Below, in pieces: positions 1 through 27,658 of a DNA stretch of 64,000 nucleotides (its first letter is position 1; each line of letters begins with the position of its first letter). This DNA is from Tepidisphaeraceae bacterium (lineage in GTDB: Bacteria > Planctomycetota > Phycisphaerae > Tepidisphaerales > Tepidisphaeraceae), in NCBI GenBank assembly GCA_035998445.1, contig DASYHQ010000056.1, positions 1 to 64,000 on the forward strand, written 5' to 3'. The notes below the pieces were generated by a model. It had not been told where the DNA came from. It did no database searches and worked only from the letters and a program-made list of their open reading frames with translations. A program made the position numbers and the translations under genes.

Positions 1-210
1 TTCCCGCGCTACCTTCGGATCTCGCGGCTCCATTCGGATCTGCACGCACACGTATGGGAACGTGAAGATGAAGACGCTTGCAATGCCGATCGCCAGCCCC
101 AGCACACCCCCGACCAGTGCCCACCCGATGCCGTATTGCCATCCCGTCGCGGCTCCGACCACAGAGCCGAGCGCCGTGCAGACGAGGATGCTGGCATAGA
201 ACAGGTTCAT
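1..210 (-). CDS. Small membrane protein, cut by the left edge of the window
   Basis: Seventy codons run open from an ATG at 210 to base 1 with no stop, so the C-terminus lies outside the window. The protein begins MNLFYASILVCTALGSVVGA and continues as two hydrophobic stretches joined by a short GWQYGIGW turn, then a polar tail (VQIRMEPRDPKVARE). Two transmembrane helices are therefore likely; no family is recognised. The start lies 10 nt after a GTTATGC box that ends an attC-like site, the usual arrangement for the first gene of an integron cassette. Function unknown; the reading frame is well supported by its hydrophobic pattern. Confidence 0.6.
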   Translation of the reverse strand, partial: MNLFYASILVCTALGSVVGAATGWQYGIGWALVGGVLGLAIGIASVFIFTFPYVCVQIRMEPRDPKVARE

Positions 211-220
211 CGCCCCCGCA

Positions 221-320
221 GCATAACGGACCGACGTTCAATGGCCGGCCCGGCACCGACCAAACCTAAGACAACGAGGACCGTTCCGCCGGGCCGGTCC
301 ATTCCAGCGGCTGGTTATTC
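221..320 (-). mobile_element. attC-like integron recombination site 1
   Basis: Read on the minus strand, the site starts with GAATAAC and ends with GTTATGC, matching the inverse-core/core pair of attC sites (RYYYAAC...GTTRRRY) with small deviations. Between them lie complementary arms, ATGGACCGGCCCGGC and GCCGGGCCGGCCAT, with an unpaired base, around a loop of about 33 nt. The TAA stop of the preceding gene (315-653) lies inside the first box. Two similar sites follow at 667-757 and 1280-1380. Confidence 0.7.
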
Positions 321-653
321 GGCTGCCGAGCGGCCGTCGACTTTGAGCAGAAATGGTTTGCCAGATTCGCGCGGCCGCCAACCATAGGACAACGCGGCTC
401 GGACCAGTCGTTCTGCATCTTTCGGGCTAACGGGCCGCTTCAGCGTTCGGCCCATGTAGAACTTCGACTCCTGCTCGGGAACTCGCTCGCCGAACAATCC
501 GGTGACACAAAGGCGCGAGCCGTTCTTCTCGGCATGCTGGACGATGAGGGACAGCGCGACGCGACCATTCGTATCGCTCGCGGCTTCGGAAACGACGTAC
601 CGGAACCGTTCGCCGTCGATCGTGAGGTTGTTACTGCCCGTGTGTTTGAGCAC
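315..653 (-). CDS. Hypothetical protein in an attC-bounded cassette
   Basis: A 112-residue soluble protein of unknown family. The GTG start at 653 follows a GAGG ribosome-binding sequence and lies 14 nt after the GTTAGTC box of attC-like site 2. Its TAA stop lies inside the first box of site 1, so the gene fills its cassette exactly. The sequence is mixed alpha/beta in character, with a conserved-looking tail (YGWRPRESGKPFLLKVDGR) and no signal peptide or membrane segment. No function can be assigned. Confidence 0.6.
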   Translation of the reverse strand: MLKHTGSNNLTIDGERFRYVVSEAASDTNGRVALSLIVQHAEKNGSRLCVTGLFGERVPEQESKFYMGRTLKRPVSPKDAERLVRAALSYGWRPRESGKPFLLKVDGRSAAE

Positions 654-666
654 CGATGCCTCAGCC

Positions 667-757
667 GACTAACGGACAGACATTCACTGGCCGGCCCGGC
701 GCCGACCACGCTTGCGGATCACGAGGACCGTTCTGCCGGGCCGGTCCAGTGCAATAG
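667..757 (-). mobile_element. attC-like site 2, one end lost
   Basis: The minus strand shows the core box GTTAGTC and the arms CACTGGACCGGCCCGGC / GCCGGGCCGGCCAGTG, as in sites 1 and 3. The opposite box is missing. Homology to site 3 stops at the ATTGCACTGG segment, exactly where the repeat starting with GGAAAAGGGACATCC begins. The site was probably cut by insertion or deletion involving that repeat. Confidence 0.6.
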
Positions 758-929
758 GCGAGGAAAAGGGACATCCAGAATATCCACACAGGATCGTTGA
801 CGGGCCAACACCGCGAACGGATATTCTGGATGTCCCCTTTTCTGGTCCGTCCGAATCAAAGACTCCCGACCCCTTATCTATCACCCGACCCCTTATCTAT
901 CACCCCTCACCCTGGATGTCCCCTTTTCC
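758..929. repeat. Palindromic repeat block (GGGACATCC / GGGGTCGGGAGTC type)
   Basis: Contains inverted copies of GGAAAAGGGACATCCAGAAT (about 762-785 and 819-843), two copies of a CGACCCCTTATCTATCACC unit (875-904), and another CCTGGATGTCCCCTTTTCCT copy ending at 930. Related pieces occur at 2319-2338 and 3653-3710. Such motifs are commonly found near REP-associated tyrosine transposases. No gene is seen here. Confidence 0.6.
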
Positions 930-1262
930 TCACCCTGCAGCTGGTGGCGATTCGACGACTGGGAATCCTTTGCCAGCCGACCGCCGCCGCCGCCGCAGCA
1001 ATTTGATCACGAGCCAAGTGACGCAGACGATGATTGAAACTGCCATCGGGAAGACGATGGATACGCCGTTGAGGATGAAGTTGTACCGGCCCACGAGCAG
1101 CGTGACTTCAGGCGTTTGATCCCCGTACGAGATGTCGAACGAGAACCATTTCGGTTGCCCCGCGTCCCATTCAACCGACGGGCGCAATACCCAGACCGCG
1201 ACCAGCAGCAGAAACAGAACGGCGGCTATGGCCGCAATTGCATCCAAGGCGCGACGGAGCAT
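930..1262 (-). CDS. Two-helix membrane protein in the cassette array
   Basis: A 110-residue protein starting MLRRALDAIAAIAAVLFLLL. One hydrophobic helix is at residues 6-24 and another near 70-92 (VSIVFPMAVSIIVCVTWLV), followed by a basic KLLRRRRR stretch that should stay cytoplasmic. I prefer this ATG to upstream frame-open codons because those lie inside attC-like site 3. The start is 17 nt after the GTTAGCT box of that site. The TGA stop coincides with the edge of a repeat copy (GGAAAAGGGGACATCC), so the original C-terminus may have been replaced. No family recognised. Confidence 0.55.
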   Translation of the reverse strand: MLRRALDAIAAIAAVLFLLLVAVWVLRPSVEWDAGQPKWFSFDISYGDQTPEVTLLVGRYNFILNGVSIVFPMAVSIIVCVTWLVIKLLRRRRRSAGKGFPVVESPPAAG

Positions 1263-1279
1263 CGGAGCTTCCCTCTGCA

Positions 1280-1380
1280 AGCTAACGGATCGACGTTCAG
1301 CGGCCGGGCGGGCACCGGACGCACTATCAAACCACGAGGACCGCGACGCCCGCCCGGTCCGCTGCAATGGGTGGTTATCT
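1280..1380 (-). mobile_element. attC-like integron recombination site 3
   Basis: The clearest site of the three. On the minus strand it runs from AGATAAC to GTTAGCT, with arms AGCGGACCGGGCGGGC and GCCCGCCCGGCCGCT. One unpaired base interrupts the helix, as expected of attC, and the variable loop is about 35 nt. The upstream gene stops at the TAA within AGATAAC, and the next start codon lies 17 nt beyond GTTAGCT. Confidence 0.72.
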
Positions 1381-1767
1381 GCCGGCCGGGCCGCCGAAAG
1401 TCTGGTTGAACGAGCCTGCCATGACCATGTCTCTTGTGAGCAGAAGACAACCGAGGCCCACGCACATGACGAACAGGTGGGACAGCGTCGTCACGACGCG
1501 AGATTGGAGTCGCGTTTGAACGGCGACACAAGCCGCCGCGACGGAGATCGGCACGACCGCAAATACGAGCGCCGGGGTCGCGAGCAGCGCCCGCATGCCG
1601 AGCGGCAGCAAGTGTGTCTTGCCCCGTGTCAGCATCTCTACGCGGCCCTGAGACTGCCACAGCTGCCAGCACACGGCGCAGGCAATTATTGTTGCAGCCA
1701 CCAGCGCTGCCCAACTCAGCCAATGGAGAAACCGCTCTTCCACTTCAGTAACACGTTCGATGCTCAC
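1375..1767 (-). CDS. Three-helix membrane protein in the cassette array
   Basis: A 130-residue protein. The GTG start at 1767 gives VSIERVTEVEERFLHWLS and is preceded by GGGGAGG; the longer upstream frame has no membrane-protein character. Hydrophobic helices are near residues 19-37 (LVAATIIACAVCWQLW), 58-80 (PALVFAVVPISVAAACVAV) and 92-110 (LFVMCVGLGCLLL). The stop TAA sits inside the first box of attC-like site 3. A GTTATCT core-like heptamer (1781-1787) lies upstream, but no matching palindrome follows it. Function unknown. Confidence 0.6.
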   Translation of the reverse strand: MSIERVTEVEERFLHWLSWAALVAATIIACAVCWQLWQSQGRVEMLTRGKTHLLPLGMRALLATPALVFAVVPISVAAACVAVQTRLQSRVVTTLSHLFVMCVGLGCLLLTRDMVMAGSFNQTFGGPAGR

Positions 1768-1869
1768 AGGCCTCCCCGGCAGATAACTAGTGATTGACCT
1801 GACCGGCGCGCGCCGAACATCGTGCCGCGGTCGGCTATTAGGCGCACGCGGCAACTGGCGGTCAAGCGG

Positions 1870-2335
1870 GGGGTTAGGGGCGGGTGGCATGGCCACGCAG
1901 TGGGGGGTCGCGGGAGCGTCGGGTCGAGGTCCCGCGTGGCCATGTCCTTCCTGCTGACCTCAGGCATGGCCACGCTCGGACGGCCTCGTCCGACTGACGC
2001 CAAACGCAGGCGTGGCCATGGCACCCGGCGGTCACGCCAGTTCCGCCTCCGGTAAGACGAAGGTGACGCACATCGAATCCGAGTAATCGATCTGCGTCAC
2101 CTTTTCCCTCCGCGTCACCTTTTCCGTCTCCGACGATCTCCCGAGCGCGTGGCCATGCCACCCGCCGACTAGACGTCCGTCATCGGAGACGGCGCGTCCG
2201 TCATCGGAGACGGCGCGTCCGTCATGGGGGTTATTCGGACGTGGGGTGCGGCGGATCAGGCGTGATGTGCGAATAATGCGGGTGGGACGTGGACGCGGGG
2301 CGGCGGGGTGTGCGGGCGAGGAAAAGGGGACATCC
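1870..2335. repeat. Repeat-filled intergenic region with REP-like and tandem units
   Basis: Holds REP-like palindromes built on GTGGCATGGCCACGC (1883, 1930-1975, 2010-2020, 2145-2160), two copies of GCGTCACCTTTTCC (2093-2125), and 2.5 tandem copies of a 21-bp unit GTCCGTCATCGGAGACGGCGC at 2175-2225. Open frames across it have no protein-like composition. No gene is supported. Confidence 0.5.
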
Positions 2336-2337
2336 AG

Positions 2338-2547
2338 GGCGAGACGTACTCGAGCGATCCGGGCGACTGGGAATTCGCCGGCGCCGCCACGCGGGCGAAC
2401 TTCACGTTCACGCTGCCCGAGGGCATCGCGCCCGGCACGACCGTGTGGACGTGCGCCGCATGGGTGAGCCGCCGCCAGCAGGCGGGGATGCTCAGTTTGC
2501 CGGCATCCACCCGCGTGCAGTTCGGCGGCGTGCAGAAGGCGGCGTGA
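2338..2547 (+). pseudogene. C-terminal remnant of an unknown protein
   Basis: About 69 codons read GETYSSDPGDWEFAG...LPEGIAPGTTVWTCAAWV...LPASTRVQFGGVQKAA, with the alternating hydrophobic pattern of a beta-sandwich protein. The frame enters directly from the GGGGACATCCAG repeat and has no credible start of its own. I read it as the 3' end of a larger gene whose 5' part was removed at the repeat junction. Confidence 0.4.
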
Positions 2548-3068: not shown

Positions 3069-3437
3069 TCACTGGTCGGCGTTGGCGATGGGGTGGACGT
3101 TCTGCACCTCAAACGCCCGGCGCTCCGCGACGGGCGGGCGGTCCACGAAGACGGCTGCGACGAGGGCGCCGATCCCCATGGCGTGGAGGATCGCGAGCCC
3201 GTAAGAGACCATCACAACCGTCTGGCCTTGGATGCCGGCAACGGTGCTCAAGTACGCGCTCAGGGCCGGGCCCGCCCATCCGCATACGAGCATCAGCCCC
3301 AGCCCAATCGCGGCAAGGGCCGCCGCGCGCGGCGCACGCCGCCGCCACCTCGCTGCGAGAATGATCCCGCCGATGAGGACGACGAGTTGAAGCGCGATCG
3401 CCAGGTATGCCAGGATGGCGAACAGGTACGATTGCAT
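3069..3437 (-). CDS. Four-helix membrane protein
   Basis: A 122-residue protein starting MQSYLFAILAYLAIALQLVV. Hydrophobic helices are predicted near residues 4-28, 40-60 (AALAAIGLGLMLVCGWAG), 66-88 and 90-106 (AMGIGALVAAVFV), separated by an arginine-rich loop (AARWRRRAPR). I chose this ATG because the region upstream is polar and unlike a protein start. No signature motif is visible; it is a hypothetical integral membrane protein in the same small-gene cluster. Confidence 0.55.
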   Translation of the reverse strand: MQSYLFAILAYLAIALQLVVLIGGIILAARWRRRAPRAAALAAIGLGLMLVCGWAGPALSAYLSTVAGIQGQTVVMVSYGLAILHAMGIGALVAAVFVDRPPVAERRAFEVQNVHPIANADQ

Positions 3438-3579
3438 GAGGACCCGTCCGATCAGCGAGAGGGTTGACGCATCTGCGCCGCACCGCCGTTGATTATCCCG
3501 TGCGCGTTCCATGCGACGGAAGGCACGGGCGGGCAAGCCGCCCGTGGCACCCAGGTTGAACGCGTTCCGGTGCTGGTTA

Positions 3580-3642
3580 ATCCAGCAGGTTCAGCGTGCT
3601 GAACTCGCCGCTTTCGAGGAACTCCAAGGACGCCCCGCCGCC
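3580..3642 (-). pseudogene. Relic of a second pgk 3' end
   Basis: Read on the minus strand, this encodes [20 protein letters not shown] plus D and a TAA stop, the same C-terminus as pgk (4079-5260). All nucleotide differences in this stretch are synonymous, including an AGC/TCC serine swap and TAG/TAA. Homology ends abruptly at a GGGGTCGGGAGTC repeat. It is therefore the tail of a diverged, once-functional pgk, separated from the present pgk end by about 440 bp that carry one small gene. Confidence 0.65.
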
Positions 3643-3650
3643 GGGAGGCA

Positions 3651-3730
3651 TAAAGGGGTCGGGAGTCATTGTTCCACCGCATTAAAGACTCCCGCCCCCT
3701 TTATCTCCCCGTGCCGACTTGTGGCACCCG
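3651..3730. repeat. Inverted repeat, AAAGGGGTCGGGAGTC type
   Basis: AAAGGGGTCGGGAGTC (3652-3667) pairs with GACTCCCGCCCCCTTT (3687-3702) across a short loop. GGCACCCGGC then borders the next gene. It resembles the block at 758-929. Confidence 0.5.
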
Positions 3731-3731
3731 G

Positions 3732-4022
3732 CTACTTGACCATAAGTCGGTACCAAGCCACGTACAACCCGCGCGCCACGATCAAGCCGAGACCGATGCA
3801 GAACAAGAACGCAGCCCACCAAACCGCAGTAAATGTGGTGACGCGAATCGTCGCGATTTGGCCGCCGTGCTTCAGGTGGCGGGCCACATCGGGGAAAATC
3901 ATGGTGGCGACCACATCGGCAAAGTCGCGGCCAACGTAGCAGAAGACCACCATAGACAGGATGAGGAACGCAAAGCCGACGACGTCGTCGGAGGACTTGG
4001 TTGGTTCGGGAGTACGTTCCAT
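3732..4022 (-). CDS. Small membrane protein downstream of pgk
   Basis: A 96-residue protein from the ATG at 4022 (MERTPEPTKSSDDVVGFAF). A GTG at 4079 would lengthen it and overlap the pgk stop, but the ATG is preceded by AGGGTTGATGTG and is preferred. One hydrophobic helix is at residues 13-32 (VVGFAFLILSMVVFCYVG) and a second near 66-88 (AVWWAAFLFCIGLGLIVARG). The gene lies between the pgk 3' end and a second, relic pgk 3' end, so it may have arrived with that rearrangement. Function unknown. Confidence 0.55.
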   Translation of the reverse strand: MERTPEPTKSSDDVVGFAFLILSMVVFCYVGRDFADVVATMIFPDVARHLKHGGQIATIRVTTFTAVWWAAFLFCIGLGLIVARGLYVAWYRLMVK

Positions 4023-27088: not shown

Positions 27089-27658
27089 TCAGAACAGCGA
27101 ACGGTCGCCGCGTGGTACGAGGTCGAACGCGATCGGGGGATGCCCCGGCTCGTCCTGATCTGCGTAGGCCCGGGCGCTCGACCACACCCATGAGACCGAA
27201 TCGGTCGTCAACCCACGCCGGATCGGGTTGCGGTGGACGTAGGCGATCTTCTCGATCAACTCGACGCCGAGGACATTCCGATCGTACCCGCCGCCCGGCT
27301 GCCAGAAGTGGGCGCGGCGGCCGTCAGGCGCCTGGAGCTTCGAAAGGATCGGCGCGTTCAGCGCTCGCCAGCGGGCGAACACCTCGGCCGCCAGGGGGCG
27401 TTTCAACGCCTGAAGGAACGGCGTCAACGGCTGGCCGCTTGGTTGGCAGACGATCAGGTGGAGGTGGTCCGGCATCACCACCCACGCGATGAGCCGAACC
27501 TCGTGCCGCAGCGTGGCGGCACCGAGGTGGGCGACGAGGCGGTCTTTGATGCGGCCATTACTGAACAGGGGCAAGCGGCGGTAACACGAGAAGGTGAGGA
27601 ACCGGGCCGTGCCTGGGACGTCGCGGCGGCGCATCGTCTTTCGCGGTGGCAGGTCCAT
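27089..27658 (-). CDS. REP-associated tyrosine transposase (RAYT, Y1_Tnp family)
   Basis: 189 residues. The single-strand DNA-cutting Y1 transposase fold is evident: FLTFSCYRRLPLF at residues 20-32, the metal-binding HUH motif in MPDHLHLIV (His65, His67), and the catalytic tyrosine in EKIAYVHRNPIRRGL (Tyr140), followed by WVWSSARAY. These enzymes recognise REP palindromes and are thought to spread them. Two REP hairpins lie on each side within 200 bp (26864-27051 and 27706-27890), the usual REPtron arrangement. The gene appears intact. All catalytic residues I can check are present, so it could be active. Confidence 0.9.
   Translation of the reverse strand: MDLPPRKTMRRRDVPGTARFLTFSCYRRLPLFSNGRIKDRLVAHLGAATLRHEVRLIAWVVMPDHLHLIVCQPSGQPLTPFLQALKRPLAAEVFARWRALNAPILSKLQAPDGRRAHFWQPGGGYDRNVLGVELIEKIAYVHRNPIRRGLTTDSVSWVWSSARAYADQDEPGHPPIAFDLVPRGDRSLF

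Follow-up and report, generated by a model that had tools for sequence, protein, structure and literature searches.

In our view the window, the stretch of 64,000 nucleotides (1-64000) with which contig C56 of a Tepidisphaeraceae bacterium (a planctomycete of the class Phycisphaerae) starts, very probably opens with an integron array that is headed by attI and has lost its intI, one of at least 21 such fragments in the host genome. Base 1 of the window is the true start of the contig. Read on the minus strand, the order is attI-like site, cassette 1, attC, cassette 2, truncated attC, cassette 3, attC, cassette 4 and contig end. The initial annotation called positions 1-1790 an integrase-less cassette array (CALIN). 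The three sites are there and the contig has no intI, so that part of the call stands, but the right edge is the attI-like site at 1783-1889, and an array that keeps such a head goes beyond attC sites alone. The features are listed here with their scores under two covariance models, R1 and R2.

1783-1889, minus strand: attI-like site of family A, joined to cassette 1 at 1787 (G|TTAT)
1286-1786, minus strand: cassette 1, from the attI-like junction (1787) to the G of R' in site 3 (1286)
1375-1767, minus strand: cassette 1 gene, 130 aa, GTG start, four hydrophobic peaks (two overlap)
1277-1385, minus strand: attC site 3, intact; R1 104.9 bits, R2 89.7 bits
673-1285, minus strand: cassette 2, with inserted palindromic repeats at about 767-930
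930-1262, minus strand: cassette 2 gene, 110 aa, with two hydrophobic segments and a 3' end within the inserted repeat
664-772, minus strand: attC site 2, with a repeat in place of the R'' box; R1 80.0 bits, R2 65.4 bits
227-672, minus strand: cassette 3, with junctions at both ends
315-653, minus strand: cassette 3 gene, 112 aa, GTG start, soluble, stop codon within the R'' box
218-325, minus strand: attC site 1, intact; R1 113.7 bits, R2 91.0 bits
1-226, minus strand: cassette 4, with a junction, truncated by the contig start (C56 begins at base 1)
1-210, minus strand: cassette 4 gene, two hydrophobic segments

The attC sites

The three sites in the window are true attC sites. Four kinds of evidence agree on this: the R2 scores, the presence of the same sites beside intact intI, the complementarity of cassette starts to their own R'' boxes, and covariation in the stems. 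R1 and R2 stand in here for the published IntegronFinder attC model. The training set of R1 includes two of the window sites. R2 was built from 19 training sites, all from other genera and from arrays with intI or attI-like heads; these were found through R1, and R2 is independent of the window in sequence, not in discovery. Both models match all three sites, and when these and their reverse strands are set aside the best R2 score elsewhere in the 64 kb is 16.3 bits. All three lie inside 1.2 kb, which makes them a cluster in the CALIN sense. An Rfam gathering scan gave no match.

Aligned on the minus strand, the sites have a mean column identity of 80%. The paired arms with an unpaired base that had been described from the letters are borne out, as all three sites have long paired arms and one conserved unpaired A in the 5' arm (GG-A-CC). 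The RYYYAAC/GTTRRRY-like boxes also reported are found in relaxed forms of that consensus, as GAATAAC or AGATAAC (ATAAC-type) for R'' in sites 1 and 3 and as GTTATGC, GTTAGTC or GTTAGCT (GTTA-type) for R', but site 2 has no ATAAC box; its R'' is replaced by a palindromic repeat of the GGGGACATCC type that begins GAGGAAAAGGGACATCC on the plus strand. Across other genera 93.6% of stem cells are paired and 53 are changed on both sides, against at most 50% paired in slid controls. Folding z-scores for the single gene strand run from -1.5 to -3.3; these are weak alone and we give them no weight.

In a circular cassette the start pairs with the R'' box of the cassette's own attC. Over 21 adjacent pairs (15 from the host genome and 6 from G020) the start matches its own R'' at a mean of 6.5 of 8 variable positions, compared with 3.6 of 8 between other pairs and 3.5 inside a single site, and none of 100,000 permutations reached the observed match. 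Cassette 1 is matched at 12 of 12 positions, core included. In cassette 3 the start CAGCCGACTAAC (reverse complement) can be set against its own R'' CAGCCGAATAAC.

Cassette genes and palindromic repeats

All cassette genes lie on the minus strand, with a single orientation between the sites, as had been annotated. Measured from the junctions with a 7-nt core box, they start 10-17 nt past that box, again as first described. Stop codons in the first box, which had been claimed generally, hold for cassettes 1 and 3 and not for the others. The expectation of mostly unknown membrane proteins is also a fair one: three of the four products (cassettes 1, 2 and 4) have hydrophobic segments, and none of the four scores above a Pfam family cut-off. 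A search of viral contigs with the cassette 1 protein gave no match.

Short palindromic repeats are interspersed at 767-930, 2050-2130 and 3655-3710 of the window, and also on C29, C61, C28 and the end of C5. The types GGGGACATCC, GGTGACGCA and GACTCCCGACCCCTTTAT break into attC sites and intI. The host genome has eight Y1_Tnp matches (REP-associated type), one of them on C56 at 27353-27592.

The attI-like head

The junction with cassette 1 reads ...GGTCAGGTCAATCACTA|GTTATCTGCCGG at 1787, placed by the 12 of 12 match to its own R''. The head is 91% identical to the copy on C17 across 1783-1889. It belongs to family A (100-190 bp), which is also found on C17, C55, C28, C7 and C39 (twice), and on C18 as a core only. 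The exact core occurs twice in G010 (Phycisphaerales RYN_433), in G020 (Phycisphaerae GZL_FP_2_bin.106) and on contig CADDYU010000260, which is filed as Methylococcaceae; three genera share it. Among 298 genomes searched in the class, three have it (the host, G010 and G020). On CADDYU010000260 and on C92 of G020, a divergent intI start, truncated in both, borders family A on its far side; family A is therefore most readily interpreted as an attI with a decayed integrase. Judged by its sequence family and junction, the window array appears to have the attI head of a complete integron. A promoter consensus scan of window 1-2400 found none at the site; TTGACC and TAATAG-like boxes can be picked out by eye.

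CADDYU010000260.1 (L172) has the family A attI-like site, attC of the same family, and an intI interrupted by a transposase-like gene. Its place under Methylococcaceae would reflect either misbinning or transfer between phyla.

Dispersed arrays in the host and its relatives

R2 finds 37 attC matches in the host genome, in clusters of 1-7, one of them being the reverse strand of another site. The sites lie scattered across some 20 contigs. A position matrix of attI ends, applied to stretches around heads, gives at least 21 attI-like sites of several sequence families a score of 18 or more; several of the counted sites also trained the matrix, which makes the number a description rather than a test. 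Contig breakage cannot account for these heads because they are repeated within single contigs: B, A, B on C7; A, A, B on C39; and B, C on C41.

The closed genome of a relative, G013 (7.2 Mb), has 19 attC matches at about 12 places and one intact intI. One attI-like family is common to three of its places, and at another place an intI start of 54 codons accompanies a different head. Because this genome is closed, its equal scatter argues against an assembly effect. G008 has 28 attC matches and three A-like heads (GGTCAGGTTAATCAGAG|GTTA), with no intI above the integrase family cut-off. G003, G004, G017, G009 and G026 have zero attC matches. On C57 of G008 (L209, oriented, about 3150-3870) two A-like heads lie 505 bp apart, and a truncated attC (the R'' half) leads directly into the second head, resembling a tandem attI-cassette module.

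The integrase genes

No intI was found on C56, where 62 kb are resolved on the attI side and the contig edge is on the left, and no remnant of one lies beside the attI-like site of the window. In the host assembly intI was found as truncated starts only: 47 codons at the ends of C7 and C41, adjoined by family B heads, and 73 codons on C5, where another repeat interrupts the gene after codon 73 (SASSQNQA). No further fragments were found in the assembly, and no intact intI stands beside an attI in it, as one would in a complete integron. The assembly has 64 contigs and is 95.5% complete; an intact copy could be absent from it, since three contigs (C5, C7 and C41) break off within the gene. The ends of these contigs (L065, L069 and L110) share identical first 47 codons, which looks like a branch point in the assembly graph, with two copies or two strains that differ in the first cassette.

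Four genomes of the same family (G020, G013, G021 and G005) have intact intI, scoring 347-353 bits against the integron integrase family. By R1, the attC sites running away from it number 7 in G020, 2 in G005, and 1 each in G013 and G021. In several genomes (L017, L160, L172 and L200) intI stops short after 53-95 codons, with the attI-proximal end kept and the catalytic part lost.

How the array probably arose

Most likely the cassettes would have arrived singly as circles, the integron integrase joining the folded attC hairpin to attI at G|TT. Loss of intI would have followed, palindromic repeats would have invaded the array, and it should now be static unless IntI is supplied in trans. We infer this recombination history, as well as the former intI beside the attI of the window and the present immobility. 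For the many heads we favour a history in which intI-attI platforms were repeatedly gained or duplicated and their intI then decayed, because an intI start is still present at several of the heads. Alternatively, one integrase may serve many attI in trans; this is compatible with platform gain and decay. We suggest only tentatively that this one family of Phycisphaerae has a scattered, multi-headed system in which one integrase, or several mostly broken lineages of integrases, served dispersed attI in trans and cassettes were stored in short, separately headed arrays.

It could be argued instead that the assembly has cut a complete integron, with an intact intI in a gap and arrays that are active and served in trans or in cis. 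The ends of C5, C7 and C41 within intI, the window array running off the contig at base 1, and the one intact intI with dispersed attC in the closed relative G013 all speak for this. But the intI of the window array would be expected to the right, on the attI side, and the resolved 62 kb there contain none; the C5 gene is cut after codon 73 by a repeat; and an assembly this complete yields no further fragment. We consider this explanation rather unlikely. It is far less probable that IntI put dispersed cassettes into ordinary chromosomal attG targets and not into attI. Insertion at attG has been described (PMC12901181), and the sites are spread over some 20 contigs. However, the flanks of first cassettes are repeated 100-190 bp families, some beside intI starts, which is unlike unrelated targets, and the window array itself has a family A head. 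We reject random attG targets for the first-cassette junctions of headed arrays, as their flanks form families; they may still apply to a few single sites that have no recognised head (C18 219835, C10).

The idea that the sites are REP/RAYT-type palindromic repeats and not attC has almost nothing to recommend it beyond a host genome rich in palindromic repeats, with Y1_Tnp genes, and the dispersal of the sites. Against it stand the complementarity within each cassette, the presence of the site family beside intI in relatives and the single orientation of the genes between sites. REP-like repeats also differ in sequence from attC and interrupt attC sites. For the window palindromes we reject this reading on the complementarity, with its 0 of 100,000 permutations. 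Nor do these palindromes occur genome-wide outside cassette arrangements, as the other host copies are arranged as cassettes too.

Relation to known integrons

An integron or CALIN is a known kind of element, and it is the architecture here that is unusual. Like a CALIN as IntegronFinder defines it (PMC9024848), the window has cassettes and clustered attC sites without an intI close by, but its array still begins with an attI-like sequence whose family is common to several genera, and the genome has about twenty headed pieces. The attI-like site, the cassettes in one direction, the lineage-specific attC family and the relatives with intact, divergent intI and attI all resemble a sedentary chromosomal integron. 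That kind has one long array and one attI, whereas the host has many short arrays, many attI-like sites and truncated intI. The Delta-attI cassettes of mobile integrons (PMC12901181) also place attI-derived sequence inside cassette arrays. There a short piece of attI, 14-18 nt in four attI1 variants, replaces the attC behind a gene, while the attI-like regions of the host are much longer, stand before cassettes and fall into several families. In the integron remnant of Treponema phagedenis (PMC3607928) attC and cassettes likewise persist after loss of intI, but several attI sites are not part of its description.

Integrons typically have one attI (PMC9024848, PMC3607928), and attI outside class 1 is poorly described (PMC9024848). 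Planctomycete integrons, CALINs and intI pseudogenes are already known (PMC8352920, PMC9024848, PMC2426708). In the literature searched, with most subscription journals outside it, we found no paper on many attI per genome or on integrons of the Phycisphaerae.

The host lineage supplies several aligned sets of attI. With its attI-like sites, at least 21 of them and of several families, its common attC family, its broken integrases and a closed relative of like layout that has one intact integrase, it offers a system for testing the action of IntI in trans on distant attI. The host and G013 together would let one ask how integron platforms multiply within a chromosome, and why attI and cassettes outlast a decaying intI.
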